From an uncultured Fodinibius sp. (GTDB lineage Bacteria > Bacteroidota > Rhodothermia > Balneolales > Balneolaceae): a DNA stretch of 64,000 nucleotides. The first letter of the stretch is position 1, and each line of letters opens with the position of its first letter. The stretch covers positions 496,001-560,000 of the forward strand of contig CAJXOG010000001.1 in NCBI GenBank assembly GCA_913057775.1, written 5' to 3'. A program made the position numbers and the translations under genes. The notes beneath the pieces were generated by a model. It did not search any database and was not told where the DNA came from. It was given only the letters and a program-made list of their open reading frames with translations. Positions 41,377 to 63,370 of the stretch are shown here, one piece after another.

Positions 41377-41409
41377 TTTAAGCTTATTTTAAGCAATGCT
41401 TTCTATATT
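41377..41409 (+). promoter_or_regulatory. TTTAAG direct-repeat promoter of the PII-like gene
   Basis: TTTAAG-CTTAT-TTTAAG at 41377-41393, then 10 bases to the -10 box TATATT at 41404-41409. Head-to-tail half-sites 11 bp apart (one helical turn), taking the place of a -35 box, are what OmpR-family activators use. One of four identical arrangements in the metal region. Confidence 0.75.
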
Positions 41410-41441
41410 AGATTTAAACTCCAGTAAAAGCAGAGGTTCGT

Positions 41442-41783
41442 ATGAAACTCATCAAAGCCTATATCCGACCAATGGTGCTTGAAGATGTTTACACAGATCT
41501 TCGAAATGAAGGATTTCACTCTATGACTGTTTTTGAAGGCGAAGGAACAGGCCGGTACAGTGATCCCGATCATCAGCATGGTTCCCTGAAGTTCCCTGCC
41601 ATGCATACCCACGTAGTGAAAATTGAGATCGCTACAGAATCCGAAAATGTAGACGAAATTACTGAAATCATTGAAAAACATGGTCGTACCGGTCACAAAG
41701 GAGACGGTATTATCTTCGTATGTCCTATTGAAAAGGTCACAAGAATACGTGACGGGAAAGAGGGTACTTCTGCTCTGAACTAA
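41442..41783 (+). CDS. PII-family (GlnB-like) signalling protein
   Basis: 113 residues with the ferredoxin-like PII fold pattern: MKLIKAYIRPMVLEDVYTDL (strand 1 and helix 1), a shortened T-loop region, the B-loop-type TGHKGDGIIFVCPIEKVTRI, and a C-terminal RDGKEGT. The T-loop Tyr51 uridylylation motif of GlnB is not evident; the region instead contains His and Asp (SDPDHQHGS). PII-like proteins of this kind occur beside heavy-metal efflux genes. The TTTAAG promoter and the following DUF302 gene suggest a metal-stress role, not nitrogen control. Confidence 0.85.
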   Translation: MKLIKAYIRPMVLEDVYTDLRNEGFHSMTVFEGEGTGRYSDPDHQHGSLKFPAMHTHVVKIEIATESENVDEITEIIEKHGRTGHKGDGIIFVCPIEKVTRIRDGKEGTSALN

Positions 41784-41794
41784 TTTCCATGCTC

Positions 41795-41828
41795 TTTAAG
41801 GTTGCTTTAAGGGAAGTCACTGTATATT
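41795..41828 (+). promoter_or_regulatory. TTTAAG direct-repeat promoter of the DUF302 gene
   Basis: TTTAAG-GTTGC-TTTAAG at 41795-41811, then 11 bases and TATATT at 41823-41828. Confidence 0.75.
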
Positions 41829-41874
41829 GGAGTAGAATTTAAAACTGATTGAATCCTAAAAGACTAAAAACACT

Positions 41875-42261
41875 ATGGAATACTTTACTTCAAAAACAGT
41901 CGACCTCTCCTATGATCAAGCCATCGACAAAGTAACTGGCCTTCTTAAAGAAGAGGGATTTGGCGTATTGACGGAAATCGACGTCAAAGATACCCTGAAA
42001 AAGAAACTGGATGTGGATTTCAAAAAGTACAAGATCCTCGGAGCTTGTAATCCCAACTTTGCCCATAAGGCACTTCAGGCGGAAGACAAAATTGGCGTGA
42101 TGCTGCCCTGTAATGTCATCGTGGAAGAAAACGAAGACGGCACGGTAGAAGTATCAGCCGTCAATCCGGTGGCTTCCATGCAAGCCGTTTCTAATAACAC
42201 GTTGCATCCCATTGCCGAAGAGGTTAAAAACAATCTCGAAAAAGTAATTAACAACTTATAA
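41875..42261 (+). CDS. DUF302 family protein
   Basis: 128 residues matching the DUF302 pattern: YDQAIDKVTGLLKEEGFGVLTEIDV, KYKILGACNPNFAHKAL with the conserved CNP, IGVMLPCNVIV, and VNPVASM. The fold is a small alpha/beta dimer. Its genes are commonly found among metal-resistance loci. No signal peptide, so cytoplasmic. It has its own TTTAAG promoter although PII is just upstream. Confidence 0.88.
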   Translation: MEYFTSKTVDLSYDQAIDKVTGLLKEEGFGVLTEIDVKDTLKKKLDVDFKKYKILGACNPNFAHKALQAEDKIGVMLPCNVIVEENEDGTVEVSAVNPVASMQAVSNNTLHPIAEEVKNNLEKVINNL

Positions 42262-42314
42262 ATAATAATTGATCTGAATTTTCAATCTAACAAACCACAA
42301 TTACGGTGACTACT

Positions 42315-42794
42315 ATGAAACACTTAACACTCACACTATCACTGGTTCTTCTTTTTGTCAGCATGAGTTTTGCTCAGCAAAAGGATATGAATCAAAAGAA
42401 GCAACAGATGATGGAAATGATGGAGGATTCCACCATGCAATCCATGATGATGCAGCATATGGCGGAGAACCCCGAAATGCGTCAAAAAATGATGCAGCAC
42501 ATGATGCAAAACATGGAAGGTGACATGAAAATGGGCAACATGCAGAAGATGATGAAAAACAATCCCCAAATGAAAGAGCGCATGCAAAAGCATATGGAAA
42601 TGATGCAGTCGATGATGGACAGTGACATGAAGATGGATAAAGCCAAAATGAAAAAGATGATGGGCGACTCCTCTATGATGAAGATGCATATGATGTGCAT
42701 GCAGATGATGCAGGGCGGCATGATGGACGGCCAGGGAATGATGAACAAAAAAGATGGCATGAAAGGTAAAGTTCATAACCAACATCACAACTGA
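42315..42794 (+). CDS. methionine-rich secreted protein (putative copper-binding)
   Basis: I use the ATG at 42315; the GTG at 42306 is also in frame. The signal peptide MKHLTLTLSLVLLFVS ends with SFA-Q. By my count about 48 of 159 residues are Met, mostly as MM, MxxM and MQHM motifs, with a few His and one Cys. Such methionine clusters bind Cu(I) or Ag(I) in periplasmic proteins. It directly follows DUF302 and is probably co-transcribed from that TTTAAG promoter. It ends at a strong terminator. The antisense frame looks His-rich only because ATG reads as CAT in reverse. Confidence 0.75.
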   Translation: MKHLTLTLSLVLLFVSMSFAQQKDMNQKKQQMMEMMEDSTMQSMMMQHMAENPEMRQKMMQHMMQNMEGDMKMGNMQKMMKNNPQMKERMQKHMEMMQSMMDSDMKMDKAKMKKMMGDSSMMKMHMMCMQMMQGGMMDGQGMMNKKDGMKGKVHNQHHN

Positions 42795-42822
42795 TTATAA
42801 ACTGACCAACAAATAGTTGGTG

Positions 42823-42854
42823 ACCCCGGTAGATTCTTGCTGCCGGGGTTTTCT
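42823..42854 (+). terminator. intrinsic terminator after the Met-rich gene
   Basis: ACCCCGGTA/TGCCGGGGT (9 bp with one G-U pair) enclosing an 11-base loop, followed by TTTTCTT. Confidence 0.85.
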
Positions 42855-43120
42855 TCTAATTGGATTCCCTGCCATTTAGACTGAGAATCAAATCTATACA
42901 AAAAAGCAACTATTCGAGCTGCACCAGCAATGCTTTGATAAGTTAGAAGTTATCAGGATCTACAATCTTTATCATAAGCTGAGCGTACTTTAATGCACTG
43001 GAATTTCTTTAACAATTACAGAAAAGAGATTAAAAGACCTTTTATACATCATTTGTTTGATGCGCAATTAACGGCAATTACGAATATTTGAGCCGTTAAT
43101 ACTAACGAATAGAGCGCATT

Positions 43121-43876
43121 ATGAAAGAGCATAAGAAAACCACGGTTTATGATTGGCCCACACGAATATTTCACTGGCTTTTCGCATTCCTCTTCTTGGG
43201 AGCCTATCTCATCGTTGAAATAGTGGATGATGATAATCCACTATTTACTCTACATATGATGGCGGGATTGACGATCGGTTTTATGTTAGTTCTGAGAATC
43301 ATTTGGGGATTTGTTGGAACCACCTATGCCCGTTTTTCATCGTTTAAATTACATCCCATTGAATTTATGCGGTACCTGAAAGATGCGATAGTAAAAAAGA
43401 CCAAGAGATACCTCGGACACAATCCGGCCTCCAGCTACGCAGCTATTATCATGTATATTTGCGCTGCGGGTTTAGCCCTCACCGGCGTGATGATGACAGG
43501 TGGCGGCGAAAGTGATTTTTATGAAGAAACGCATGAACTGTTGGCCACTATATTTTTGATTACCGTCATTGCCCACGTAGGAGGTATTATATTCCATCAC
43601 GTTAAGCACCGGGATTCGCTGTGGTCGAGTATGTTCGACGGTAAAAAGAAAGCACTACCAGAAAAAACGGGTATCACCAATAGCAAACGATTTGCCGGAA
43701 TGCTATTTTTAATCCTTACATTAACATGGAGCGGTTATTTGTATTCAACGTATGACAGCACGAATCAAACAATCAATTTATTCGGACAAGAGCTAACCCT
43801 CGGTGAGGAAGAGCATGAGGAACATGAGTCTGTTTATGAAGGAGAAGCTCATGAAGAAGAGAATGATGAGGATTAA
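43121..43876 (+). CDS. cytochrome b561-type membrane protein
   Basis: 251 residues. It starts YDWPTRIFHWLFAFLFLGAY, the common signature of cytochrome b561/Ni-Fe hydrogenase-type b subunits. Four helices carry candidate haem-ligand histidines (FHW, LHMMAGL, ETHELLA, AHVGGIIFHHVKH). A fifth hydrophobic stretch (MLFLILTLTWSGYLYS) leads into an acidic, His/Glu-rich tail (EEEHEEHE, EGEAHEEE) that may bind metal. It likely transfers electrons across the inner membrane, as in diheme b561 partners of small cytochromes. No partner is adjacent. Followed closely by LuxR-type and Crp-type regulators. Confidence 0.85.
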   Translation: MKEHKKTTVYDWPTRIFHWLFAFLFLGAYLIVEIVDDDNPLFTLHMMAGLTIGFMLVLRIIWGFVGTTYARFSSFKLHPIEFMRYLKDAIVKKTKRYLGHNPASSYAAIIMYICAAGLALTGVMMTGGGESDFYEETHELLATIFLITVIAHVGGIIFHHVKHRDSLWSSMFDGKKKALPEKTGITNSKRFAGMLFLILTLTWSGYLYSTYDSTNQTINLFGQELTLGEEEHEEHESVYEGEAHEEENDED

Positions 43877-43887
43877 GCAATAATAAA

Positions 43888-44418
43888 ATGAAAAACAATG
43901 AACGATGGATCATTGCCACTATCCTTTTTGTAATAGCAGTACTGGCATCCATAGATATCTATAACGACTATTTTGAAGGGGTGGCCCTGTGGCATATTTC
44001 GATTGAAGCCATTGTAGGATTTGTTGCGCTGGCAGGGGTTTTTTATTTGGTACGAGGACGCTTCAGGCTGCAACATTCGTTGGCTCAAGAGCAACAATTT
44101 TCGGAGGATCTGCAAGCCGAGGCAGAAAAATGGCAACAGGTGTCCGAAAAATATGTAAAGGGGCTAAGTGTCGAAATAGAAAATCAGCTGGATCGCTGGG
44201 ACCTGACGGAGGCCGAGAAAGAGGTTTCTTTTCTGCTGCTGAAAGGATTAAGTAACAAGGAAATTGCCGAAGTCAGAGGTACCAGCGTTCAAACCGTTCG
44301 AAGCCAAACCAATGCGATCTATACGAAATCAGGACTTAACGGCCGATCTGAACTATCGGCATTTTTTCTTGAAGACTTGCTTCCCCCTCAAAAACAGGAT
44401 ACAAGATCAGAAATGTAA
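43888..44418 (+). CDS. membrane-anchored LuxR-type HTH regulator
   Basis: 176 residues: two N-terminal membrane helices (RWIIATILFVIAVLASIDI and AIVGFVALAGVFYLV), a coiled linker, and a C-terminal LuxR HTH (LTEAEKEVSFLLLKGLSNKE, IAEVRGTSVQTVRSQTNAIYTKSG). It should be inserted in the inner membrane with the HTH inside the cell. It begins 11 bases after the cytochrome b stop and 20 bases before the Crp gene, so one operon. Confidence 0.82.
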   Translation: MKNNERWIIATILFVIAVLASIDIYNDYFEGVALWHISIEAIVGFVALAGVFYLVRGRFRLQHSLAQEQQFSEDLQAEAEKWQQVSEKYVKGLSVEIENQLDRWDLTEAEKEVSFLLLKGLSNKEIAEVRGTSVQTVRSQTNAIYTKSGLNGRSELSAFFLEDLLPPQKQDTRSEM

Positions 44419-44438
44419 GTTCTAAACGCGCTTAATTT

Positions 44439-45185
44439 ATGTCAGATAAAAGAGAAACCCCGCTTAGCACGCCATCATTGCAAGAGCATCACTGCACCGT
44501 TGATCTTCGGTTGGAGAAGCTGGGGATGGTGCCATTCTTTCAAGATCTGCCCGAAGAGCAACTCCGGGAAGTAAATAAAAAGTGTACCGCCAACCACTAT
44601 TCCAAAGGCGAAACCATTTACCGGCAGGGCGATTCCGCGACCATGCTTCGGGTGGTGGTAGCGGGAAACGTTAAACTGGCTGCTCACACTCTGGAGGGAG
44701 AAAGCGTGCTGCTGGATATGCTACAGCCGGGCGATTTTTTCGGCAATCCCACGGCCCGTGGCAGGGATGTCTACAGTGAAACAGCCGAAACCCAAACCTC
44801 TGCGTGTATCCTTTCGATCAGACTTAGTGATTTTCGAGAGGTTATGAACCGGTATCCCTCTGTTGCAATGGCAGTGTTGGATATTACGACCGACCGGCTC
44901 AACGAATCCCGCCAGCGAATCCAGCATCTTTCTACGTTGCCGGTAACAAAGCGTATAGCACATATTCTCGTTACCTTGGGTAATAAGTTCGGCGAAAAAG
45001 ACAGCCGCGGTCTGCTGATTCAACTTCCTCTTTCCCGCAAAGACCTCGCTGATATGGCGGGCACGTCACCCGCAACAGCCAGCCGGATCATGAGCCAGTT
45101 TCAGAACGATAATCTTATCACCTCTGGACGACAATGGGTTGCTATTAACAACAAAGCTGAACTGCTGCGGATTTCAGCTAAATAA
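44439..45185 (+). CDS. Crp/Fnr-family transcriptional regulator
   Basis: 248 residues. The N-terminal cyclic-nucleotide-binding-like beta barrel (MVPFFQDLPEEQLREV, YRQGDSATMLRVVVAGNVKL, LDMLQPGDFFG) covers about 25-150. The C-terminal winged HTH (LSRKDLADMAGTSPATASRI) ends the protein. Only scattered Cys residues occur, so an Fnr-type 4Fe-4S cluster is not supported; the sensory signal is unknown. Third gene of the cytochrome b operon. It could respond to redox or metal state. Confidence 0.87.
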   Translation: MSDKRETPLSTPSLQEHHCTVDLRLEKLGMVPFFQDLPEEQLREVNKKCTANHYSKGETIYRQGDSATMLRVVVAGNVKLAAHTLEGESVLLDMLQPGDFFGNPTARGRDVYSETAETQTSACILSIRLSDFREVMNRYPSVAMAVLDITTDRLNESRQRIQHLSTLPVTKRIAHILVTLGNKFGEKDSRGLLIQLPLSRKDLADMAGTSPATASRIMSQFQNDNLITSGRQWVAINNKAELLRISAK

Positions 45186-45358
45186 TGATCCCTCTCCTTT
45201 TTTGATTTACTGCACCGCTAACCAAGTCATTCCTCAATAGTTTTCCCATTATAAAAAAATATCAGTACTAAATTGATCCAGCTCATTTTAGTGCTTCTGC
45301 CCGCCTGTTACCTTTTGATTGAATCGAAAACACAAACAACACACAAAAGGTACTTAGT

Positions 45359-45961
45359 ATGAAATACTTGCAATCACATATAAAAACGACATTAGCTTCA
45401 ATTTTCACCTTAGTATTTATACTTAGCTTTGTTTCAAGCAGTCAAGCACATTGCGATCGGGTGAACGGTCCCGTGGCAACGGATGCCCGTCAAGCGCTTG
45501 AAACCGGCGATATCTCTCATGCGCTTATTTGGGTAACAGACCAGCAAGCCGAGGAACTCAAATCCACATTTGAGCAGAGCCTGAACGTTTATACCAAGGG
45601 TGAGGAATCACAAGAACTTGCCGAACGCTACTTTATGAGTGAAACAGTACGACTACACCGTGAGGCAGAAGGCATGCCCTTTACTGGTCTAAAACCCGCC
45701 CAGCCAAGCTCACAAGATATTCAGACAGCCGAACAAGCACTTGCCTCAGGCGAACTGGCCCCTGTTACCGACATGCTGGCGAACGAAATCCAGAAGAAAA
45801 CGTCGGAACTTTACAGCAAAGCTATGGAAGCCAAAAGTAAGAAAGATAACAGCGTAGAAGCTGGCCGAAAGTGGGTAGACGCTTATGTAAAGTATATCGT
45901 ATATGTCCACAAACTGTATCAAAAAATTCAGGCCGGACCGGCCCACGGCGTTGGAGAGTAA
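45359..45961 (+). CDS. DUF6448 family secreted protein
   Basis: 200 residues with a signal peptide ending SSSQA-H. The mature region begins with the family motif CDRVNGPVATDARQALETGD, then continues as helices with conserved ALIWV, and ends in YVKYIVYVHKLYQKIQAG. The family is known only by number; the conserved N-terminal Cys and His residues (HCDRVNGP, HALIWV, GPAHG) could bind metal. It sits alone upstream of the HMA chaperone gene. Confidence 0.8.
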   Translation: MKYLQSHIKTTLASIFTLVFILSFVSSSQAHCDRVNGPVATDARQALETGDISHALIWVTDQQAEELKSTFEQSLNVYTKGEESQELAERYFMSETVRLHREAEGMPFTGLKPAQPSSQDIQTAEQALASGELAPVTDMLANEIQKKTSELYSKAMEAKSKKDNSVEAGRKWVDAYVKYIVYVHKLYQKIQAGPAHGVGE

Positions 45962-46035
45962 TACCTATTGCCGGAGATCTGACAGATACTCAACAACAGG
46001 TAGATAAATCATAAAACCTAACAGAGGTAGTTATT

Positions 46036-46260
46036 ATGACAACAACAAAAACAATATTGCGAAGCGATGATCTGAGCTGTCCTACATGCGTAGATAATAT
46101 CGAGTCCAGTTTAAATCAAACGGAGGGGGTATCCCAAGCCAAAGTTCATTTCAATACCGGACGCATTGAGGTGGAGCACGATCCCGAGACTGTTTCTGAA
46201 GACAAGCTGCTTGAAGTCGTCGAGCAGTCAGGGTATGAAGCCCGAATTTCGCAATTTTAA
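46036..46260 (+). CDS. small heavy-metal-associated (HMA) chaperone
   Basis: 74 residues, a stand-alone HMA domain: strand 1, then LSCPTCVDNIESSL with the metal-binding CxxC, and a C-terminal VEHDPETVSEDKLLEVVEQS and GYEA. A ribosome-binding site (AGAGG) precedes the ATG. It is 11 bases upstream of a P1B ATPase that lacks its own HMA domain, so it probably supplies metal to that pump. Confidence 0.93.
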   Translation: MTTTKTILRSDDLSCPTCVDNIESSLNQTEGVSQAKVHFNTGRIEVEHDPETVSEDKLLEVVEQSGYEARISQF

Positions 46261-46271
46261 TCCTAAAAACT

Positions 46272-48233
46272 ATGAAAATACTCCAAAAGCTACTCAGCGG
46301 CTTGACCAATCCTTCAACACGCAAGAAAGTATTATTAATAATCAGTGGCTCGCTTATCACAGCCGGGTGGGCCACTGACTTCTTTCGGGATTCGGCCTTG
46401 TTATTTAATACGTTCATGATTGGGGCTGCGCTGGTTGCCGGGTTAGAAATCGCCCGACGGGCATGGCAGGGACTTAAAAATCGCCATACCAATATTGAGC
46501 TGCTGGTGACGATCGCCGCTACGGGTGGAATTGCCATTGGCGTGCACTGGGAAGCCGCGGCGGTGACGTTCTTGTTCCTACTCGGAGGCTGGCTGGAAGC
46601 GCGGACGATGAGCAAAACACGGGATACCCTACGGGAACTCATTAATATGGCACCCGATACGGCCATAGTGTTAGAGAATGAAAGCCGTCGGGAACTGCCG
46701 GCCCGGGAGGTTAAAAAAGGAATGCTGGTGCTGGTAAAGCCCGGATCAAAAATCCCGGTGGACGGTGTGGTCCAATCCGGCACTACGTCAGTAGATGAAA
46801 GTGCGATAACAGGAGAGCCCATACCCGCAGAAAAGCAATCCGGAGCGGAAGTATTTGCGGGCACTATTAACCAAAATGGAAGTATTCGGGTGCGGGCAAC
46901 CAAAGCCGGAGGCGACACGACTCTGGCCAAAATTATCCAGCGCGTGGAAGAGGCCCAGGAGGAAAAAGCACCCACGCAGCGCTTTATTGAACGGTTTGCC
47001 CAGTGGTATACGCCCGGTATCGTAGGATTGAGTATCCTCTCATACCTGTGGACCTGGAATCTGGAGCTTGCACTCACACTGCTGGTGATTGGCTGTCCCG
47101 GGGCGCTGGTTATTTCTACTCCGATATCGATCATAACCGGAATAGGAAATGCAGCAAAGAAAGGGATCCTTATCAAAGGTGGAGAATACTTGGAAAATGC
47201 TGGAACGATCTCGGCTGTAGCACTGGATAAGACCGGCACGCTTACGCAGGGAAAGCCAAAGATAACAGAGTTTGTTTGCCTCCAAAGAGAGAAAGTCGAG
47301 GCGGATATTGGAAAATCACATGCAAAGGAGGAGTTATCGGTGGTCCCTGCCTCTGATATTGAAGGGGAAAATATCCCAGAACAAGTAACCGACCTTTTGT
47401 ATTGGGCGGGGATGGCAGAGTCGACCTCTGAACACCCGCTGGCCGAAGCTATCCTATCCGAGGTGCCAACATCCCTGGATTTGCCCGAACCCGATTATTT
47501 CACATCCCACACCGGTTTGGGTATAGAGGTCTTACACAAGGAGAAGAAAATCTTAGTGGGAAGCACAAAATTCTTAAAGCGGCAGGAAATTGTTATCGGG
47601 GATAGCTTTGTCAACCAGATAGATAAGCTGGCCGAGAACGGACGTACGACTGTGCTGGTAGCATATGATAACAGGTTGCTTGGAGGCATTGCGATAGCCG
47701 ACCCCATGCGCCCGGAAGCCTCCAAGATGATTAAACAGCTCCAAAAAAGTGGAGTCAATCGAATTGTCATGCTAACCGGTGATGCCAGGGATACTGCTGA
47801 AGCTATTGCCAAAGAAGCAGGGATTAAGGAGGTGCATGCGGGTATGATGCCCGATCAAAAGAATGATATCATCCATGACTTGCAACAAGAAGGTGAGAAC
47901 GTAGCCATGATCGGTGACGGTATCAATGATGCCCCCGCCTTGGCTGCCGCTGATATCGGTATTGCGATGGGAGCTGCCGGCACTGATGTAGCAATAGAAA
48001 CGGCTGATATTGCCTTGATGTCGGATAAGCTAATGACTATACCAGAGGCGTTGAAGATATCAAAACTGACATTGCGAAATATCCATCAGAATGTTGCCAT
48101 TGCCTTGGTGACGGTAGGGGCATTACTTGCTGGTGTATTCATGGGATCAGTACATATGGCAGCGGGAATGCTTATCCACGAGCTTTCAGTGATGGCCGTA
48201 ATATTAAATGGCATGCGATTACGCTGGATTTAG
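46272..48233 (+). CDS. P1B-type heavy-metal-translocating ATPase with CPG membrane motif
   Basis: 653 residues. There is no N-terminal HMA domain; the protein begins directly with the membrane helices (IISGSLITAGWA). The actuator TGEP site (SAITGEPIPAE), the M6 metal motif CPGALVIST, the phosphorylation site DKTGTLTQGKPK, the P1B-specific SEHPLAEA, MLTGDARDTAEAIA and the hinge MIGDGINDAPALAAADIGIAMG are all present. P1B pumps export Cu(I), Zn, Cd or Pb. The CPC usually seen is CPG here, so the specificity class is uncertain. Encoded directly behind its probable chaperone. Confidence 0.92.
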   Translation: MKILQKLLSGLTNPSTRKKVLLIISGSLITAGWATDFFRDSALLFNTFMIGAALVAGLEIARRAWQGLKNRHTNIELLVTIAATGGIAIGVHWEAAAVTFLFLLGGWLEARTMSKTRDTLRELINMAPDTAIVLENESRRELPAREVKKGMLVLVKPGSKIPVDGVVQSGTTSVDESAITGEPIPAEKQSGAEVFAGTINQNGSIRVRATKAGGDTTLAKIIQRVEEAQEEKAPTQRFIERFAQWYTPGIVGLSILSYLWTWNLELALTLLVIGCPGALVISTPISIITGIGNAAKKGILIKGGEYLENAGTISAVALDKTGTLTQGKPKITEFVCLQREKVEADIGKSHAKEELSVVPASDIEGENIPEQVTDLLYWAGMAESTSEHPLAEAILSEVPTSLDLPEPDYFTSHTGLGIEVLHKEKKILVGSTKFLKRQEIVIGDSFVNQIDKLAENGRTTVLVAYDNRLLGGIAIADPMRPEASKMIKQLQKSGVNRIVMLTGDARDTAEAIAKEAGIKEVHAGMMPDQKNDIIHDLQQEGENVAMIGDGINDAPALAAADIGIAMGAAGTDVAIETADIALMSDKLMTIPEALKISKLTLRNIHQNVAIALVTVGALLAGVFMGSVHMAAGMLIHELSVMAVILNGMRLRWI

Positions 48234-48395
48234 CAGATGATCTTGAATCGGGAATGGCAATTTCAACCAAAGTTCATATCTAATGATCGGACTGGTCAAG
48301 TTATTTAGTGCCAAATCAAAATTCCGAGCCAGAGGTATTCTCTCCGACAACAGGTTAAATCCAGTAAATGAAGAAATAGCAAATCCCTCTCCAAT

Positions 48396-48429
48396 TTTAA
48401 GCTTGTTTTAAGGCACCTGTTTCTATCTT
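48396..48429 (+). promoter_or_regulatory. TTTAAG direct-repeat promoter of the SHOCT gene
   Basis: TTTAAG-CTTGT-TTTAAG at 48396-48412, then 11 bases and the weaker -10 TATCTT at 48424-48429. Confidence 0.7.
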
Positions 48430-48470
48430 CCAAATAGATTATTACTAATTGTAATTAATAAATCAGTATT

Positions 48471-48683
48471 ATGCTTTTTGATCATCACTTTATAGGCATG
48501 CACTGGATATGGTGGATTATTGTAGTTGGTATTATCCTGTTGGTTCTTTTCAATGTCATTCCTTATCGCCCAAAAGCCGAACTGGAAGATGATGCCTTGG
48601 ACATATTAAAGAAAAGATTTGCTCAAGGAAAAATTGAACGGGAAGAATTTGAAGAGCGAAAGAAAATACTTAAGGATAATTGA
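48471..48683 (+). CDS. small SHOCT-domain membrane protein
   Basis: 70 residues: one membrane helix (IWWIIVVGIILLVLFNVI), then the C-terminal SHOCT module (ALDILKKRFAQGKIEREEFE and ERKKIL). SHOCT domains are short oligomerisation units of membrane proteins. Preceded by a TTTAAG-type promoter and followed immediately by a methyltransferase, so it is probably copper-induced. Confidence 0.85.
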   Translation: MLFDHHFIGMHWIWWIIVVGIILLVLFNVIPYRPKAELEDDALDILKKRFAQGKIEREEFEERKKILKDN

Positions 48684-48688
48684 CAAGT

Positions 48689-49336
48689 ATGCCAACCGAA
48701 AAAGTGTCATATAAAGAAACAACTCATACCCAACATCGTTACGACTGGATAGCTCCATTCTATAACCTGATGGAGTGGCCGGTAGAAAAACTGCTGTTCC
48801 AAGATTGGCGCAGTGACCTTTGGCAACAGGTCGAAGGGCCAAAGGTACTGGAGATTGGCGTGGGAACCGGCAAAAACATCCCCTATTACCCTGATGATAT
48901 TGATCTATCTGGTATTGACTTATCGCCTAAGATGTTGGAACGAGCCAAATCCCTGCTGGAAAAACATGATAAAAGCCAGGTACAACTTAAAGAGATGGAT
49001 GCCCAAGACATGGACTATCCTGACAATCATTTTGACGATGTGGTGGCTACTTTTGTCTTTTGCTCAGTGCCTGATCCCGTTTTGGGTCTCCAGGAAGCAT
49101 TACGGGTGACCCGCCCCGGCGGCCGGCTTCGTCTGCTGGAACATATGCGTGCTGAATGGTCACCGCTGGCTTTAGTGATGGATCGTCTTGATGCCCCTTT
49201 TCATTATCTAAGCGGCGTACATATTGCCCGTAAAACCGTAGATAACGTAGAAAAAGCAGGATGGCAACTACAAAAAGTTCAGGATCTAACTAATGGAGGC
49301 ATCGTTAAAAAAATCGAAGCCATTAAACCACGTTAG
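48689..49336 (+). CDS. class I SAM-dependent methyltransferase
   Basis: About 215 residues from the ATG at 48689, which has AAGGAT upstream; a TTG three codons earlier would overlap the SHOCT stop. The SAM-binding motif I is VLEIGVGTGKNIPYY and motif II IDLSPKMLERA, followed by PDNHFDDVVATF and a post-motif RPGGRLRLLEHM typical of the UbiE/phospholipid N-methyltransferase group. Soluble. Probably co-transcribed with SHOCT from its TTTAAG promoter. Substrate unknown; membrane lipid or quinone modification is possible. Confidence 0.87.
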   Translation: MPTEKVSYKETTHTQHRYDWIAPFYNLMEWPVEKLLFQDWRSDLWQQVEGPKVLEIGVGTGKNIPYYPDDIDLSGIDLSPKMLERAKSLLEKHDKSQVQLKEMDAQDMDYPDNHFDDVVATFVFCSVPDPVLGLQEALRVTRPGGRLRLLEHMRAEWSPLALVMDRLDAPFHYLSGVHIARKTVDNVEKAGWQLQKVQDLTNGGIVKKIEAIKPR

Positions 49337-50766
49337 GCTTCCTCCTCTTCCAACAATGGCAGCTCTATGACAAACGTACTGCCCTGTCCCGGACCATCAC
49401 TATACGCTCGTATTTTTCCACCGTACAACTCGACAATAGCCTTGACGAGGGGCAGTCCCAAACCACTCCCCGGTTTTTCCTGCACCTTCGATTCATTTGC
49501 CCGATAGAACCGTTCAAAAAGATGCTTTTTAGTCTCCTCCTTAAATCCAATTCCGGTATCACTCAGATGAATGACTGCCTTCCCACTACTTTGTTGAAGC
49601 TCAAGATGTATCTCTCCACCTTCCGTGGTATATTTACAAGCATTTTCTAATAGATTATTTATGACTTCTTCGATGTAGGCTCCATGCGCCTGAACGTGTA
49701 AATCCGCCTTAATTTGGGTCTGTAGATCAATATTCTCCTGATTACATTTTTCCTGATATTCCTTAGCCACCTTATCCGTAATACTACTGATGTTAATCCG
49801 TTCTGGCTCGGAGCGATGGTCGGCTTCCACTCTGGACAGCTGGAGTAACAGATGCACCATTTCGCTCATGCGGCGCACTTCCGCAAGCATACGCTGGATC
49901 GTTTCTCGATACTCTTCTTTTGAGCGCGGCTTGCGCAACATAATTTCGGCATCGCTTTGCAGGGATGATAGCGGGGTCATCAGCTCATGGGCCGCATCCG
50001 AGGTAAACCGCTTTTCTCGCTCAAACCCTCGTTGCAGTCGATTCAACATCATATTGAAGGTTTCCGCCAAGTCGGTCAATTCATCTCGCACCTGGTAGTT
50101 TACGGGTATGCGCTTGTCCAAATCAGTGGCCGTTATAGATTTGGCTGCATCGATAATCGAGGCCACCGGTGACAGTGCCCTGCGCGAGAGCCAGTAGCCG
50201 CCCAGGATGGAAAAGAGCACGCTGATTGCGATAAATACCAACAAGTATCGCCGGAACCGATTGACCTCTTCGTGGAGGGTCCACTCAAAACCAGTCACTT
50301 CCAGCCAGCCACAAAAGTCTCCCCCATTATCTGTAATTGGATAGAAGAGCGTTCGAGCGGGTAAGTCCTGCCACTGGCTGCTAAACGAATATTCTTCGCG
50401 TGTACCCGGAAGTTCTGTCTCCAGCGGTTGGTCTACCTTCGAGAAATTGGGACTGCTGTATATCTGATTTCCCTGTTCATCATACAACTTTACATACGTC
50501 CCATATTCCACGCCGCTTTGTAAGGCTTCGTTCCGGCTGTATCCCGATAGGTTAATGGAAAGCGAATCCTCAGTTTGTATAAAAGGAAGTAGTTGTTCAG
50601 CTTCAAAACGGAGATGGCGATCGTAATTGTGGTGGATGGACTGGTGAAAGGTCTCATATAAAACGTAGCCAAACAGGCTAAGCATCACGAACAGACTCAA
50701 CCCATACCAAAATGCCAATTTCTTAGAAATGGAAAGCCGATCAAGAAATGACGTTAGTTTACTCAA
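49333..50766 (-). CDS. sensor histidine kinase of a metal-type two-component system
   Basis: 477 residues: helix 1 at about 16-38 (LAFWYGLSLFVMLSLFGYV), a periplasmic sensor to about 165, helix 2 (YLLVFIAISVLFSILGGYWL), HAMP, then a HisKA box (DAAHELMTPLSSLQSDAEIM) and HATPase with NNLLENACKYT, DTGIGF and GSGLGLPLVKAIVELYGG. The layout is that of CusS/heavy-metal sensor kinases. Four bases separate it from the response regulator, which is upstream in the same transcript. It overlaps the methyltransferase end tail to tail. The metal ligands of the sensor cannot be picked out. Confidence 0.92.
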   Translation of the reverse strand: MSKLTSFLDRLSISKKLAFWYGLSLFVMLSLFGYVLYETFHQSIHHNYDRHLRFEAEQLLPFIQTEDSLSINLSGYSRNEALQSGVEYGTYVKLYDEQGNQIYSSPNFSKVDQPLETELPGTREEYSFSSQWQDLPARTLFYPITDNGGDFCGWLEVTGFEWTLHEEVNRFRRYLLVFIAISVLFSILGGYWLSRRALSPVASIIDAAKSITATDLDKRIPVNYQVRDELTDLAETFNMMLNRLQRGFEREKRFTSDAAHELMTPLSSLQSDAEIMLRKPRSKEEYRETIQRMLAEVRRMSEMVHLLLQLSRVEADHRSEPERINISSITDKVAKEYQEKCNQENIDLQTQIKADLHVQAHGAYIEEVINNLLENACKYTTEGGEIHLELQQSSGKAVIHLSDTGIGFKEETKKHLFERFYRANESKVQEKPGSGLGLPLVKAIVELYGGKIRAYSDGPGQGSTFVIELPLLEEEEA

Positions 50767-50770
50767 AATA

Positions 50771-51493
50771 CTATTCTTTTTTGCTTATTACATCGACATG
50801 TAACCGGTATCCGGCTCCCCGAATGGTTTCAATAATATTACTGGAATCATCCCATGCCACCTCATCGCATTCTTTAAGCGATTCGCCCAGTTTTTGTCGG
50901 AGCGTAGAAATCGTTGCTTCGATGGTATTATCACTTACGTGATAGGCTGATCCCCAGACTCGCTCGGCAATTTGTGTCTTGGAAAACACCGCTTCCGGTT
51001 CTTTAAGCAGCAGCTCCAGTAGGGTAAACTCTTTGGGACGAAGGGTGCGTTCGATGCCACAAATATTAAGCTTATGCTTTCGGCTATCCAGCTCAATAGG
51101 TCCTGCAGAGACTGTTTCGGTATCATTGATTTCGGATTTTCGCCTTCCCAGCGCCCGTACCCGCGCCAGCAGTTCTTCAAAGGAAAAGGGCTTGCTCATA
51201 TAGTCATCGGCGCCCGCATCAAGCCCCGACACTTTATGATCCAGATCTCCCAAAGCGGTGAGCATCAATACGGGAAAACTCCGTCCCTCCTTCCGCCAGT
51301 GCTGCAAAATCTGTTTCCCATCCCGGTTGGGCAGCCGCCAATCAAGGATCACCACATCATAATCGCTGACCATCCCCTGGAGCTCCGCCTCTTCGCCATC
51401 GTGGATGACTTCAACGACGTGGCCCTCTTCTTCCAACCCGCGCTTGAGGTTACCGGCAAGCTGTTGTTCATCTTCCACTAATAGTATCCACAT
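50771..51493 (-). CDS. OmpR-family response regulator (CusR/CopR-like)
   Basis: 240 residues. The receiver domain has the acidic pair EDEQQ, the phospho-acceptor Asp in VVILDWRLPNRDG, conserved Thr in VLMLTALG, and Lys in DYMSKPFSFEELLAR. The C-terminal winged helix (Trans_reg_C) includes LRPKEFTLLELLLKEPEAVF and GYRLHV. It is divergent from the multicopper oxidase, whose promoter has TTTAAG-N5-TTTAAG. It is the simplest candidate to bind that repeat at all four sites. Confidence 0.93.
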   Translation of the reverse strand: MWILLVEDEQQLAGNLKRGLEEEGHVVEVIHDGEEAELQGMVSDYDVVILDWRLPNRDGKQILQHWRKEGRSFPVLMLTALGDLDHKVSGLDAGADDYMSKPFSFEELLARVRALGRRKSEINDTETVSAGPIELDSRKHKLNICGIERTLRPKEFTLLELLLKEPEAVFSKTQIAERVWGSAYHVSDNTIEATISTLRQKLGESLKECDEVAWDDSSNIIETIRGAGYRLHVDVISKKE

Positions 51494-51549
51494 AAACGAC
51501 TCTGCATTAGGATATAAAAATTTTCACCCCTAAAATAACAGACTCTGAG

Positions 51550-51591
51550 CTTAAATGTTTTAAGCTTCATTTAAGGTTGGGCTGTTATATT
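51550..51591 (+). promoter_or_regulatory. TTTAAG direct-repeat promoter of copA, with inverted half-site
   Basis: TTTAAG-CTTCA-TTTAAG at 51559-51575, then 10 bases and TATATT at 51586-51591. An inverted half-site CTTAAA lies just upstream at 51550-51555 and faces the divergent two-component genes, which would allow autoregulation. Confidence 0.75.
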
Positions 51592-51647: not shown

Positions 51648-53477
51648 ATGAGTGAAGACAACAACATGACACGCCGAACATTCTTGCGCTATGCCGGTTC
51701 CTTAGCGGCTTTTGCTGGTGCAAGCGCGGTATTGCCGGGTTACGCCTTAGCCGGCTTCGGCAGTGGGGATCGAGAAGTGTTAACTCCTAAAGGACCTGAT
51801 AATGTCATTGATCTCACCATCGGCAAAATGCCGCATAAAATCGATGGAAAACGAGGCGAAGCCATTGGTATCAACGGATCGGTACCCGGTCCGTTGATCC
51901 GCTTGCAGGAAGGACAAGACGTAATGCTTCGGGTGACCAATGAGTTGGACGATACGACCTCCATTCACTGGCACGGCATCCTATTGCCTTTTCAGATGGA
52001 TGGTGTCCCCGGCGTCAGTTTTGACGGCATCGCCCCTGGGGAGACCTTTGAATATAAGTACCCGGTACGGCAGAATGGCACCTATTGGTATCACAGTCAC
52101 TCGGGCCTGCAGGAACAGCTCGGCCATTATGGCCCTATGATTATTGATCCGGCCGATGAAGATCCGGTAGAGTATGATCGAGAATACCCGATTGTACTCT
52201 CCGACTGGACATTCGAAGATCCTCATGACGTGCTGGACAATGTCATATCGTTGGATGCCTACTACAATTACCAGCAGCGCACGCTCGGAGATTTTTTCGA
52301 CGACGTTAAGGAGAAAGGGTTGGGTGATACGATTAAAAACTACGCGTCTTTTGGAAAAATGCGCATGAAAGCGACCGACCTGTTGGACATTACAGGAGCA
52401 ACCTACACCTATCTGATGAACGGTCGCGGGCCCAACTCCAACTGGAACGCCCTGTTTAAGAAGGGAGAAAAAGTGCGGCTGAGATTTATCAATGCTTCGG
52501 CTGGTACTACCGCGTTTGATGTCCGCATTCCCGGCCTGGAGATGACGGTGGTACAAGCTGATGGTCAAAATATCGAACCGGTCCCCATTGAAGAATTCCG
52601 TATCGGTATTGCCGAAACCTACGACGTGATTGTCGAACCCAAGGAAGAAAAACCATACACCATTTTTGCCGAATCTCTCGACCGCAGTGGCTATGCCCGT
52701 GGAACGCTGGCCCCACGCGAGGGGATGTCAGCCCCAATTCCCGAACTGCGGGAACGTCCCGTCCGAGATATGAGAGATATGGGTATGATGATGGGTATGG
52801 ATGGTATGGATATGAAAGAAGGTGACATGAAGGGCATGGATCACGGAGACATGGACCATGGGAATATGGACCACGGAGGTCAGGATAGTGACGCAATGGT
52901 GCCCGCCTGGAAAGAAACGCCGGTCAAACACGGCCCCAGCAAGCACGGCCCGGGCGCCGCTGCTATTGCCCAGAACCAATTTAATCGGCTCGATGAACCC
53001 GGCATCGGACTTGGTGACGACGGACGCAAAGTGCTTACCTATAACAACTTAAAAAGCCTTCGTCCCAACAAGGATGAACGCGATGCCCAACGCGAAGTTG
53101 AGCTGCACCTGACGGGCAACATGGAACGGTACATGTGGTCATTCGATGGAGATCAGTTCCATGAAGTGGATGGCCCGATTGAGTTTACCCACAATGAGCG
53201 ATTAAGGCTCATCCTCGTCAACGATACCATGATGGAACACCCCATTCACCTGCACGGCATGTGGATGGAGCTGGAAAATGGCAACGGACAGTATAATCCC
53301 CGGCAGCATACCCTGCTGGTACAACCCGCACAACGCATTTCGGCCCTTATTACGCCCCGCGATAAAGGGCGTTGGGCCTTCCACTGCCACATCCTGTATC
53401 ACATGGAGCGGGGTATGTTCCGCGTCGTCCAGGTGGCCGATGAAGACGGCAGTATTTATGGACAGGACTATTCGTAA
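51648..53477 (+). CDS. copA: multicopper oxidase / copper resistance protein CopA
   Basis: 609 residues. A Tat signal (MTRRTFLRYAGSLAAFAG) directs folded export. Four cupredoxin copper-ligand stretches are visible: IHWHGI, YWYHSHSGLQEQLGHYG, HPIHLHGM and HCHILYHMERGM, the last holding the T1/T3 ligands. A methionine/histidine-rich insert (DMRDMGMMMGMDGMDMKEGD and MDHGDMDHGNMDHG) at about 375-425 is typical of CopA/PcoA. It oxidises Cu(I) in the periplasm. Transcribed from the TTTAAG promoter at 51559, then copB, permease and other genes follow in the same direction. Confidence 0.95.
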   Translation: MSEDNNMTRRTFLRYAGSLAAFAGASAVLPGYALAGFGSGDREVLTPKGPDNVIDLTIGKMPHKIDGKRGEAIGINGSVPGPLIRLQEGQDVMLRVTNELDDTTSIHWHGILLPFQMDGVPGVSFDGIAPGETFEYKYPVRQNGTYWYHSHSGLQEQLGHYGPMIIDPADEDPVEYDREYPIVLSDWTFEDPHDVLDNVISLDAYYNYQQRTLGDFFDDVKEKGLGDTIKNYASFGKMRMKATDLLDITGATYTYLMNGRGPNSNWNALFKKGEKVRLRFINASAGTTAFDVRIPGLEMTVVQADGQNIEPVPIEEFRIGIAETYDVIVEPKEEKPYTIFAESLDRSGYARGTLAPREGMSAPIPELRERPVRDMRDMGMMMGMDGMDMKEGDMKGMDHGDMDHGNMDHGGQDSDAMVPAWKETPVKHGPSKHGPGAAAIAQNQFNRLDEPGIGLGDDGRKVLTYNNLKSLRPNKDERDAQREVELHLTGNMERYMWSFDGDQFHEVDGPIEFTHNERLRLILVNDTMMEHPIHLHGMWMELENGNGQYNPRQHTLLVQPAQRISALITPRDKGRWAFHCHILYHMERGMFRVVQVADEDGSIYGQDYS

Positions 53478-53533: not shown

Positions 53534-54295
53534 ATGACCATGATTAAACGTGCATCGATATTCATTCTCACTGCTTTTGCTCTGATTATAATTGCCGGTA
53601 GCTCAGCTTTTGCTCAGAAAGCACCTGAGTTCAGCAATGACCTGATGATGGGCGATAAAACCTATGCTTATTTTACTGCTGATAAACTGGAGTACCGGAG
53701 TATGGATGGCAGCAATCCTGTTATGTGGGATATAAAAGCCTACATTGGCAAAGATCTAGGGAAGTTTTGGTTCAAGTCCCACGGAGAAGCGGTCCCGACC
53801 GCAAGTGAGGCGCATATGGAATTCCAGGGATTATACAGCCGCGCCATCAGTCCCTATCTTGATGTTACCGGCGGCCTCCGGTACGATCTGGCCTACGAAC
53901 ACGGAAATAAATCCCGGGGATTTGCTACCGTCGGACTTCAGGGCAAAGCGCCCTACTTCATCCATTTTGAAAGCGGAATCTATGTAAGCGAAGCCGGTAA
54001 CATTTCGGCGGATTTGGAAGCTGAATACGATCTACTTTTTACCCAGCGGCTTGTCGGACAGCCAATAGTTGAAACCAGTGTTGCTTTCCAGGAGGTTCCC
54101 GAATGGGGTGTTGGATCTGGCTTAAACAATATTGGACTCGGCTTCCGGCTTCGCTATGAGTTCGTGCGGGAATTTGCCCCGTATATTGGCATCAACTGGG
54201 AGCGTAAACTGGCCGAAACCGCCGACATGGCACGCGCAGAAGGCGGGCATGTAAGCAATCTGAGTCTGCTCGGTGGTGTTCGCATGTGGTTTTAA
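53534..54295 (+). CDS. copB: copper resistance protein B (CopB)
   Basis: 253 residues with a signal peptide (SSAFA-Q) and the CopB beta-barrel pattern: LMMGDKTYAYFTADKLEYRS, YIGKDLGKFWFKSHGEA, GGLRYDLAYE, GLQGKAPYFIHFESGIYVSE, and LNNIGLGFRLRYEF, ending VRMWF. It lacks the long Met/His-rich N-terminal region seen in some CopB proteins. Expected in the outer membrane and functioning with CopA. 56 bases downstream of copA. Confidence 0.93.
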   Translation: MTMIKRASIFILTAFALIIIAGSSAFAQKAPEFSNDLMMGDKTYAYFTADKLEYRSMDGSNPVMWDIKAYIGKDLGKFWFKSHGEAVPTASEAHMEFQGLYSRAISPYLDVTGGLRYDLAYEHGNKSRGFATVGLQGKAPYFIHFESGIYVSEAGNISADLEAEYDLLFTQRLVGQPIVETSVAFQEVPEWGVGSGLNNIGLGFRLRYEFVREFAPYIGINWERKLAETADMARAEGGHVSNLSLLGGVRMWF

Positions 54296-54370: not shown

Positions 54371-55573
54371 ATGGATTTTATTAACCTGTATGGAGAATCA
54401 GCAAAAACGGCACTGGGCTTCTTTTGGAAATCCGGCTGGGCCTTTGTGCTAGGTTATTTTGTAAGCGGCATGATTCAGGCCTTCGTCCCCAAGAAAGAGC
54501 TAACCAAATACATGGGCGACGCTGATCTAAAAAGTATTTCCCTATCCACCTTCTTTGGCGCCGCTTCCTCGTCCTGTTCCTTTGCCGCCCTCGCGGCCGC
54601 CCGATCACTGGTCAAAAAAGGAGCTCACTTCATCGCCGCCGTTGCTTTTATGTTTGCCTCTACCAATCTGGTTATTGAACTGGGGATTCTGATCCTCATT
54701 TTTCTGGGCTGGCAATTTCTGGCGGCGGAACTTATTGGCGGGCTGGTACTCATTGCCATAAGCAGCTTGCTCATTAAATGGACGTATCCGGAAAGCTGGC
54801 TACAAGCTGCTCGTGAAAAGGTAGAACAATATGATGGGCTGACCGAGGACTTCGACTGGAAAGAGCGCATCACCAGTAAAGAAGGATGGCAGCTGGTTGG
54901 CCACAAATTTGTCAACGACTGGAAGATGGCTTGGGAAGACATCCTCATTGGATTTACCATTGCCGGCTTTGTAGCGGTACTGGTGCCCGAATCATTCTGG
55001 ACGACACTCTTTCTGGCCGATGCCCAACACCTTCCCGACTGGCTGGTAACGCTTGAAAATGCCGCTATTGCTCCCTTCGTGGCGGCCTCCACCTTTATTG
55101 GATCGATGGGAAATATTCCATTGGCGACAGTACTCAATCAAAACGGCGTGCTGTTTGCCGGTATCATGGGCTTTATCTATTCCGACCTGATGGTCCCTCC
55201 GCTGGTGCACATCAATGCGAAATATTACGGTTGGAAAGTAGCACTCTATATTGCTGGCGTCATGTTTGTAAGCATTGTGATTACCGCCTTGCTCCTGAAC
55301 GGACTCTTCTCCTTTCTGGACATCGTACCGGAAAGCAGGCGCGTGGTTTCGGAGATCACCCAGTTTAAAATCGACTACACCTTCTGGATGAACCTCGTCT
55401 TTGTATGGATTGCTGGTTGGCTAGTCTGGCAAAATAAACGCTACCTGGAAGATCACGATATGAAGATGATGGACATGGAAGGCGGTGGTACGATTAAGAA
55501 AGTTGCTGTTACCTTATTTATTATCATTAATGTATTAGGATTATCAGCATTTGCTTACACCCAACTGTTATAA
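54371..55573 (+). CDS. permease of the DUF318/ArsP type
   Basis: 400 residues, about ten membrane helices in two halves. The conserved FFGAASSSCSFAALAAARSL and FASTNLVIELGILILIFLGW match the COG0701 permease family, which includes the organoarsenical exporter ArsP. The second half repeats the pattern (AAASTFIGSMGNIPLATVL-like, then FAGIMGFIYSDLMVPPL). Third gene of the copper operon, so metal or metalloid export is likely; substrate not assignable. Confidence 0.88.
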   Translation: MDFINLYGESAKTALGFFWKSGWAFVLGYFVSGMIQAFVPKKELTKYMGDADLKSISLSTFFGAASSSCSFAALAAARSLVKKGAHFIAAVAFMFASTNLVIELGILILIFLGWQFLAAELIGGLVLIAISSLLIKWTYPESWLQAAREKVEQYDGLTEDFDWKERITSKEGWQLVGHKFVNDWKMAWEDILIGFTIAGFVAVLVPESFWTTLFLADAQHLPDWLVTLENAAIAPFVAASTFIGSMGNIPLATVLNQNGVLFAGIMGFIYSDLMVPPLVHINAKYYGWKVALYIAGVMFVSIVITALLLNGLFSFLDIVPESRRVVSEITQFKIDYTFWMNLVFVWIAGWLVWQNKRYLEDHDMKMMDMEGGGTIKKVAVTLFIIINVLGLSAFAYTQLL

Positions 55574-55591: not shown

Positions 55592-56668
55592 ATGGAATTA
55601 ATTCCCGAATGGGCTCCGAACATACATCCCATACTCGTTCATTTTCCCATTGCTATTATACTATTGGCAGTACTAATGGACTTACTAAACTTCTTTCTGC
55701 CTGACAAGTGGTGGGATGCTCTTAAAACAACCATCCTTCATGGCTTTGGCGCAGTTTCAGCTATTGTGGCTTACTATACCGGTTCCATTGCGGCTGACAG
55801 TATCTTTTTGCCATCGGGAGCTCAATCGGTGTTGAATGAACATGCCGACTGGGCCTTGTGGACGGTTTGGTTCTTTGGGATCTATGCCTTGCTACGTATT
55901 GCGGTTCATTGGTATGAAAAGATGGATCAAAAGGTAATCAGGATCGGGCTTTTTGTCATTGTTTTGCCCGGTATTTTCTTCCTCTATGAAACCGGTGATC
56001 ACGGTGCTGAAATGGTCTTTGGTTACGGAACGGGCACCGGCCAACTGATCGAACAGCAAGAAACGACATCGCTCACCTCCGATAGCCTGCAAGAGGGCGG
56101 GTCAACATTCACGGTCAGTAATAATGGCAACTGGTCATGGGAAATTGGTCCCAATGTCGTAAGTACGCTGCTTTCCCGGTTCCGGTGGTTGGAAGGATCC
56201 GCCTCTGAACTTCAGCCAACCGTTATTACCAGTGGCAACAATCACCTGCTTAAGATTTCTGGCGATTCCATCGCTAACTTCTTTGTTGGGAAAGACTCAT
56301 TTCAAAACGTGCAGGTCGATTACTACCTGGACCTCTCTGATTTTGAAGGGAAAATTTCGCTGATCAACCATCTGCAGGATGCCCAAAACTATGATTTTGT
56401 AACGCTGTCCTCTGATGGCACTATGTCCCAGGGACGCGTCACCGAGGGCAACCGTGAAGTATTTGCCGAAGAATCCTATTCAGCTTCGGGGATGCTATTT
56501 ATTCGTATCATCGGCAACGGCACGCATTTCCGCGGCTACATTAACAAAGAGATGGTCGTTCATGGCCATGGGGACGCCCCAGAGGCCGGCAGTGTGGGCT
56601 TGCGGCTGGATGGAAACGGAACGGTGCTTATCGATAGAATTTCCTTAACACAACTCAATAATCATTAA
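55592..56668 (+). CDS. DUF2231 membrane protein with C-terminal LamG/DUF1080-like domain
   Basis: 358 residues. The N-terminal DUF2231 helices start with HPILVHFPIAIILLAVLMDL (the family signature), followed by three more segments to about 145. The rest (about 170-355) is beta-rich and resembles concanavalin-like DUF1080/LamG domains (DYYLDLSDFEGKISLINHL, GTHFRGYINKEMVVHGHG). Such fusions are seen in copper clusters. Continues the copA-copB-permease transcript at 18 bases. Confidence 0.82.
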   Translation: MELIPEWAPNIHPILVHFPIAIILLAVLMDLLNFFLPDKWWDALKTTILHGFGAVSAIVAYYTGSIAADSIFLPSGAQSVLNEHADWALWTVWFFGIYALLRIAVHWYEKMDQKVIRIGLFVIVLPGIFFLYETGDHGAEMVFGYGTGTGQLIEQQETTSLTSDSLQEGGSTFTVSNNGNWSWEIGPNVVSTLLSRFRWLEGSASELQPTVITSGNNHLLKISGDSIANFFVGKDSFQNVQVDYYLDLSDFEGKISLINHLQDAQNYDFVTLSSDGTMSQGRVTEGNREVFAEESYSASGMLFIRIIGNGTHFRGYINKEMVVHGHGDAPEAGSVGLRLDGNGTVLIDRISLTQLNNH

Positions 56669-56676
56669 TTAATATT

Positions 56677-57129
56677 ATGTCTAATCGGATATCATTGACT
56701 GCAATTCTACTTTTTATAATCGGAACGTCCATTGCTGTAGGACAACATTCTGCTACAGAAAAGAAGGTGATCCAAACGCTTAATGCGTTTCATGAGGCTA
56801 TTATTGATAATGACAGCCAAGCTGCCAAGGGTCTGCTCTCAGAGTCTGTCCGAATCTTGGAAGGCGTTAACATCGAAACGAAGGGTGAATATCTGTCTCA
56901 CCATTTTCATTCGGATGGAAAATTTCTGAGTGCCATGAAACGGGAAGTTGAATCCCGCAAAGTTTCGATTGACGGTAATACGGCCTGGATCTCAACTCAA
57001 ACACATACCTGGGGTACCTACAGCGATAGGAATCTGGATTTGAACAGTCTCGAACTGGCTGTTCTCAAGAAAGAAGACGGGAACTGGAAGATTGGTGCAC
57101 TTCACTGGTCCTCGGCCAGTAATAAGTAA
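56677..57129 (+). CDS. secreted NTF2/DUF4440-like protein
   Basis: 150 residues with a signal peptide (SLTAILLFIIGTSIAVGQ). The fold pattern is NTF2-like: VIQTLNAFHEAIIDNDSQAA, LLSESVRILEG, AWISTQTHTWGTYSDRNLDL, and WKIGALHWSSA. Such small sheets bind hydrophobic ligands or act as scaffolds. Last gene of the copper operon, seven bases past DUF2231. Confidence 0.82.
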   Translation: MSNRISLTAILLFIIGTSIAVGQHSATEKKVIQTLNAFHEAIIDNDSQAAKGLLSESVRILEGVNIETKGEYLSHHFHSDGKFLSAMKREVESRKVSIDGNTAWISTQTHTWGTYSDRNLDLNSLELAVLKKEDGNWKIGALHWSSASNK

Positions 57130-57406: not shown

Positions 57407-57868
57407 ATGATTGAGGATATGGAGGAAAAATATGACGGCATAACCACCTATAAAATTGGTGACGTAGCCAGACGGGCAGGTGTCAACAAAGAGACCGTCC
57501 GCTACTACGAGAAGCGGGAGCTGATCCCCAAACCCGATCGAAGGCGGTCGGGCTATCGAATCTTTACCCAGCGACATATTGATCAGATCAGGTTCATCAA
57601 GCGGGCCCAAGAGCTTGGGTTTACGCTCAGTGAAATCAAGGAGTTCTTAGAGCTGCGAGTAGATGAAGATACTTCTTGTTCAGAAATTAAGGAAGAAGCA
57701 CAACAAAAGTACCAAGATGTTGCCCAAAAGATTAAAGATCTACAACGGATCAAAGAGACGTTAACTGATCTTATTGATTCCTGTTCTGAAGATGGGCCTG
57801 TCGGAGGTTGTCCGATTCTTGAAGCGTTGGAAGGCAACAGTGAAACCGGGAAACAGCTTAGAACATGA
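57407..57868 (+). CDS. merR: MerR-family mercury-type regulator
   Basis: 153 residues. The N-terminal winged helix reads YKIGDVARRAGVNKETVRYY and RRSGYRIF. The dimerisation helix leads to the Hg(II)-ligand pattern: DTSCSEI, then SCSEDGPVGGCPILEAL. The last two Cys are separated by eight residues as in Tn501/Tn21 MerR (C117 and C126), and the first sits near C82. This supports thiophilic metal sensing by three Cys. An alternative start at 57419 is possible. The stop overlaps the next gene by four bases. Confidence 0.9.
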   Translation: MIEDMEEKYDGITTYKIGDVARRAGVNKETVRYYEKRELIPKPDRRRSGYRIFTQRHIDQIRFIKRAQELGFTLSEIKEFLELRVDEDTSCSEIKEEAQQKYQDVAQKIKDLQRIKETLTDLIDSCSEDGPVGGCPILEALEGNSETGKQLRT

Positions 57869-61331: not shown

Positions 61332-61369
61332 ATCAGTACTATTTGATAAAGTTCATATTCCAAGCGTCC

Positions 61370-63025: not shown

Positions 63026-63069
63026 TGCATCAAAATTTGTTCGTAATAAATTTATTAGATGACTGAGAA

Positions 63070-63366: not shown

Positions 63367-63370
63367 AGTA

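Follow-up and report, generated by a model that had tools for sequence, protein, structure and literature searches.

Four promoters in a 64,000-nt stretch of DNA from an uncultured Fodinibius sp. (Balneolaceae; assembly GCA_913057775.1, contig CAJXOG010000001.1, positions 496,001 to 560,000; the whole stretch is hereafter called the window) carry an exact TTTAAG-N5-TTTAAG direct repeat, here called the box, directly upstream of a -10 element. We propose that the adjacent CusR/CopR-like response regulator (RR) uses these boxes as operators and that they mediate copper-responsive activation of four transcription units, a reading to which we assign a probability of about 0.83. Judging from sequence comparison, the predicted copper regulon is very likely real, and we infer the control by copper from the gene content.

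According to this proposal, the stimulus for the membrane-bound sensor kinase would most likely be a surplus of copper in the periplasm, upon which the RR would become phosphorylated. The phosphorylated RR dimer would then bind the two TTTAAG half-sites head-to-tail on one face of the DNA, substitute for the missing -35 element, and recruit RNA polymerase to a -10 element starting 10-11 bp downstream. The units switched on in this way would be copA-copB with the genes that follow, the DUF302 gene together with a gene for a methionine-rich (Met-rich) exported protein, the P-II-like gene, and the SHOCT gene with a methyltransferase gene. Box 4 keeps conserved distances to the RR promoter on one side and the copA promoter on the other, and therefore probably also tunes the expression of the RR.

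Box architecture and promoter geometry

The window contains four exact matches to TTTAAG-N5-TTTAAG, every one on the + strand and at the positions given in a preliminary description of this DNA, compared with 0 in dinucleotide shuffles of the window. The -10 elements claimed 10-11 bases past each repeat were also found, including the TATCTT at SHOCT (Table 1). All four boxes thus display the CiaR-type promoter layout, with the tandem repeat followed by a -10 element at about 10 bp.

We aligned 17 intergenic regions, each extending from the RR gene to the divergently oriented gene next to it, in most cases copA. Hardly any columns were invariant other than those of both half-sites, the CT of the spacer, a GTT past the second half-site, and bases of the -10 element. 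A second invariant patch, TTAnnTT on the RR strand (columns AA..TAA), keeps a constant spacing to the box, so that a single operator may serve both the RR promoter and that of the divergent gene. The preliminary description had also pointed to an inverted CTTAAA at copA. This sequence is present (51550-51555), but only 3 of the 17 orthologous intergenic regions have it, namely the window and its two nearest loci; it was therefore rejected as a conserved element and is probably non-functional.

Of 101 unique sites, 59 have TATNTT starting 10 or 11 bases past the repeat, and 94 have TANNNT there. Because the loci had partly been chosen by their -10 element, we repeated the geometry test on 34 sites selected independently of it, and found TANNNT at 10 or 11 bp in 30 of them (shuffles: mean 2.6, maximum 9). 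Recognition of the repeat as a -35 element by an alternative sigma factor is unlikely, as several sites have a plain TATAAT -10 element.

The response regulator as putative binder

To relate the box to the RR, we searched for the refined motif YTTAAGSTTNNYTTAAG without requiring a -10 element, taking RRs of at least 72% identity as orthologs. In 16 family genomes with the RR, the motif gave 104 sites and was present in all 16, a count that is not independent because the STT spacer was derived from the same genomes; the 0 sites in 15 of 15 family genomes lacking the RR (Fisher p=3e-9) and the reversed controls, 2 in each set, are independent. When the -10 element was included, among 59 genomes (the own genome and relatives) the motif was found in 15 of 15 with an RR of at least 72% identity and in one other genome. 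In a survey of the phylum, covering a sample of 394 of its genomes, it was present in 11/11 with such an RR versus 25/383 others, the latter having few matches each, mostly without the consensus spacer. Two genomes of another genus (G094 and G146), whose RR has 56-57% identity, carry TTTAAGGTAGTTTTAAG with TATAAT in the divergent promoter region. The nearest named relatives of the RR are Fodinibius and Aliifodinibius records.

The genes behind the boxes recur as well. The RR, the kinase and CopA lie near boxes in 15 of 15 further genomes with an RR of at least 72% identity. In the window and the fetched loci, boxes precede CopA multicopper oxidase genes (18), DUF302 genes (13), copper ATPase genes (10; TIGR01511 644 bits, cut-off 397) and SHOCT genes (10; behind 5 further boxes, a SHOCT-type gene probably precedes the called gene), followed by genes for the Met-rich protein (6), TolC (5), DUF2231 (4) and P-II (4).

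The RR belongs to the OmpR/PhoB family by its receiver domain (PF00072, 90.7 bits) and its winged-helix Trans_reg_C domain (PF00486, 74.7 bits). Its recognition helix, VSDNTIEAT-S-LR, is invariant across 21 ortholog sequences and shared by 0 of 73 more distant RRs with a readable helix. Between this helix and the wing, residues about 205-222 form a loop that is long and variable compared with PDB relatives. Of 74 distant RR loci, 1 has an exact TTTAAG box immediately upstream of the RR gene. In this locus, from a Campylobacteraceae metagenome-assembled genome (L153, position 1223), TTTAAGGTTTATTTAAG lies 79 bp upstream of the start of an RR that is 39% identical and whose recognition helix, VSSNIINVYMHHLRHK, is unlike that of the window RR. 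The kinase has a His-rich stretch, fH.SIHHNYDRH, after its first transmembrane segment; it is kept in the orthologs and is in keeping with a metal sensor, without proving one.

The window also encodes Crp-type and LuxR-type regulators, which were rejected as binders: within the fetched stretches they lie near boxes in 2 and 4 of 15 genomes, respectively, and do not track the box. Of the three local regulators compared, only the RR, together with its kinase, does so. Taken together, the exact co-occurrence, the footprint, the fixed -10 spacing, the recurring targets and the existence of identical boxes established by experiment for other OmpR/PhoB regulators support the adjacent OmpR-family RR as the putative binder, as the preliminary description had proposed.

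Several observations weigh against the proposal. The RR reaches 187.7 bits with TIGR01387 (heavy-metal CusR/CopR/SilR; cut-off 279.2) and is related to this curated family but outside it, and the kinase stays below the cut-off of TIGR01386 (CusS/CopS) with 266.6 of 292.55 bits, its best library match. Because both fall below the NCBIfam copper/heavy-metal cut-offs, the metal could be another, for example silver. Two genomes (G022 and G329) have boxes, and a close RR ortholog was not found in them; since the boxes there sit on contigs of 7-15 kb, the RR may be missing from these assemblies, or the contigs may be stray sequence. These short contigs (L094 and L108) have the box before DUF302 or a Cu-ATPase gene. 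The absences of the Crp-type and LuxR-type genes, moreover, were scored within the fetched stretches only. Finally, pattern searches of the own genome (3.1 Mb, Fodinibius-like) showed no enrichment of the bare TTTAAG-N5-TTTAAG core, with 6 occurrences against 5 for the reversed control, so that the bare core proves nothing alone.

The genome-wide search that the preliminary description had suggested was thus negative for the bare core and positive once the promoter was considered: the core with TATNTT at 8-13 bp occurs 5 times (control, 0), and 4 of the 5 are inside the window. Allowing one mismatch together with the -10 element revealed no credible further site beyond the controls in this genome. 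Two further exact cores lack the STT spacer. The one at C1:279538 comes with a -10-like TAAAAT, but close relatives whose promoter aligns lack the repeat, and we regard it as chance; for the one at C8:18733, no open frame of at least 45 codons begins within 330 bp. As the mismatch search stayed at control level and these two cores are unconvincing, we count four credible boxes in the genome, all in the copper island.

We considered three other explanations. The one that survives best, although improbable, is that the RR does bind the boxes but answers not to copper but to silver, a different metal or general envelope stress, or that it acts as a repressor. The missed cut-offs of the RR and the kinase would fit this, as would the enlarged box set of one genome (G011), where some targets are, by inspection, not obviously tied to copper (glgC-like, MFS-type). 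On contig C47 of this genome (L091-L093), the genes behind the boxes include a glgC-like one and others for an MFS-type and an MMPL transporter and for a methyltransferase. However, the CopA multicopper oxidase is found with the RR in each of the 15 further genomes and Cu-ATPase genes are frequent targets, and a box that replaces the -35 element at a fixed distance from the -10 element is the layout of CiaR activation (PMC3091779).

It is distinctly less probable still that the boxes are real operators of another binder, for instance an OmpR-family paralog of the RR, or the Crp- and LuxR-type regulators of the same stretch. Paralogs are at hand, as the RR query has 15 matches in its own genome; several different OmpR-family RRs bind TTTAAG-N5-TTTAAG elsewhere (PMC3091779, PMC10927774, PMC8345958), and boxes occur in G022 and G329, where no close RR ortholog was found. 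Yet other OmpR-type RRs occur in all relatives searched, while in 31 genomes the box is present or absent exactly as this RR is, and it sits in the RR's own divergent promoter region; the Crp-/LuxR-type genes do not track it within the fetched stretches. That the repeats arose by coincidence in AT-rich DNA, or by recent duplication of a single promoter, would agree with the near-equal counts of the bare core and its reversal, but is scarcely credible and, as regards chance, rejected, given that the four sites have unrelated flanks and unrelated genes behind them, conservation ends at the box edges, and the refined box is absent from RR-less genomes and follows the RR exactly.

Genes of the copper island

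The genes said to lie behind the boxes (P-II, DUF302, SHOCT and the multicopper oxidase CopA) were all verified by profile scores (Table 1).

Table 1. Boxes, promoter elements and genes of the copper island, with positions in the window
Feature	Position	Strand	Details
Box 1, TTTAAGCTTATTTTAAG	41377-41393	+	-10 TATATT, 41404-41409, gap 10
P-II family protein	41442-41783	+	Box 1 target; Pfam P-II 67.6 bits
Box 2, TTTAAGGTTGCTTTAAG	41795-41811	+	-10 TATATT, 41823-41828, gap 11
DUF302 protein	41875-42261	+	First gene past box 2; PF03625 93.3 bits
Met-rich exported protein	42318-42794	+	Terminator-like hairpin downstream, 42822-42850
Box 3, TTTAAGCTTGTTTTAAG	48396-48412	+	-10 TATCTT, 48424-48429, gap 11
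SHOCT protein	48471-48683	+	Box 3 target; PF09851 28.2 bits
S-adenosylmethionine (SAM) methyltransferase	48680-49336	+	Overlaps SHOCT; PF08241 73.1 bits
Sensor histidine kinase	49333-50766	-	CusS/CopS-like; TIGR01386 266.6 bits
OmpR/PhoB response regulator (RR)	50771-51493	-	Proposed binder; profile scores, recognition helix
-10-like element of divergent RR promoter, TATTTT	51532-51537	-	Conserved, at fixed distance to box 4
Box 4, TTTAAGCTTCATTTAAG	51559-51575	+	Between RR and copA; -10 TATATT, 51586-51591, gap 10
CopA multicopper oxidase	51648-53477	+	TIGR01480 806 bits, cut-off 478.95
CopB	53534-54295	+	Probable rest of copA operon
ArsP_1-type permease	54371-55573	+	Probable rest of copA operon
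DUF2231-like protein	55592-56668	+	Probable rest of copA operon; assigned via relative in L103
DUF4440	56677-57129	+	Probable rest of copA operon

P-II relatives in three other loci (L071, L100 and L105) are likewise preceded by a box of their own. PII-NG is a distinct clade of P-II proteins found near metal-efflux genes (PMC7726332); the island setting of the window protein fits this group, of which it is a candidate member by domain and setting. The gene for the Met-rich protein, which has its own box in several relatives, is probably co-transcribed with DUF302 here. The methyltransferase frame as listed begins at a TTG, and an ATG is present at 48689. The copA operon probably continues from CopB through DUF4440.

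A P1B-type metal ATPase of the window (46272-48233; TIGR01525 571.8 bits) is without a box of its own and reads GCPGALV at the place where CPC, SPC or TPC is usual in related pumps. A MerR-type regulator and then a small Cys-rich protein are encoded at 57407-58077. RND-type efflux pump genes adjoin the island on the - strand (58233-63952), with a large pump protein at 58233-61331 and further genes upstream of it, and the window holds no TTTAAG box for them.

If the proposal is right, genes of unclear role (DUF302, SHOCT, P-II-like, DUF2231 and the Met-rich protein) would find a place in the copper response. The regulon would be compact, in a phylum for which the open-licence full-text papers searched describe none, and the rule of YTTAAGSTTNNYTTAAG followed at 10-11 bp by TANNNT would name its members in 16 genomes.

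Comparison with known TTTAAG and copper systems

Head-to-tail half-sites, which the preliminary description took as the activator geometry of the OmpR family, have identical, proven counterparts and are not new: TTTAAG-N5-TTTAAG has been established for CiaR (PMC3091779, PMC9603419), Acinetobacter baumannii PmrA (PMC10927774) and Helicobacter pylori HP1043 (PMC8345958). One close counterpart is CiaR of the streptococcal CiaRH system, an OmpR-family activator with the same box and a -10 element ten bases downstream (PMC3091779, PMC9603419). CiaR, however, belongs to another phylum and targets csRNAs and others rather than copper genes; its recognition helix is VVEVYVSKVRKKL, compared with TIEATISTLRQKL in the window RR, and, unlike its boxes, the Fodinibius-like ones have the spacer STTNN and a -10 gap of 10 or 11.

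PmrA/BasR of gamma-proteobacteria recognizes TTTAAGNNNNNTTTAAG in A. baumannii and a YTTAAK direct repeat in Salmonella (PMC10927774), and binds as a head-to-tail dimer with half-site 1 at -35 (PMC4660055), but controls a polymyxin-resistance regulon. Of the base-reading residues of Klebsiella pneumoniae PmrA, Asn188 and Arg210 have counterparts in the window RR by alignment, whereas Asn196 is replaced by Thr. The RR scores 156.9 bits with the PmrA equivalog NF007928 (cut-off 330). With its scores below the cut-offs, we consider that the RR would work like the heavy-metal and PmrA regulators from outside those curated families. HP1043 (HsrA) likewise has a promoter-overlapping site of two TTTAAG hexamers spaced by 5 bp (PMC8345958), but is an essential orphan RR that works without phosphorylation and has a broad housekeeping regulon. 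Direct-repeat operators are also used by two copper regulators of two-component systems, CopR of Corynebacterium glutamicum and CopR of Synechocystis, and the C. glutamicum operator is located between copR and the divergent genes (PMC3140484, PMC4182526); their repeats, TGAAGATTTnnTGAAGATTT and TTCATN4-5TTCAT, differ from TTTAAG.

The box and its geometry are therefore already known, and what is new is a copper-linked RR subfamily in Balneolota that uses them. Whether a separate Balneolota subfamily with its own invariant helix came to use the 17-bp operator and promoter spacing that CiaR, PmrA and HP1043 also use seems to us an even bet. If so, RRs that differ in signal and phylum would have arrived at, or retained, one operator code, which in Balneolota would be a copper code that also brings a P-II-like protein and DUF302 under two-component metal control. 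A further OmpR-family branch that reads the TTTAAG tandem box with a different helix would help to decode how such helices read DNA.

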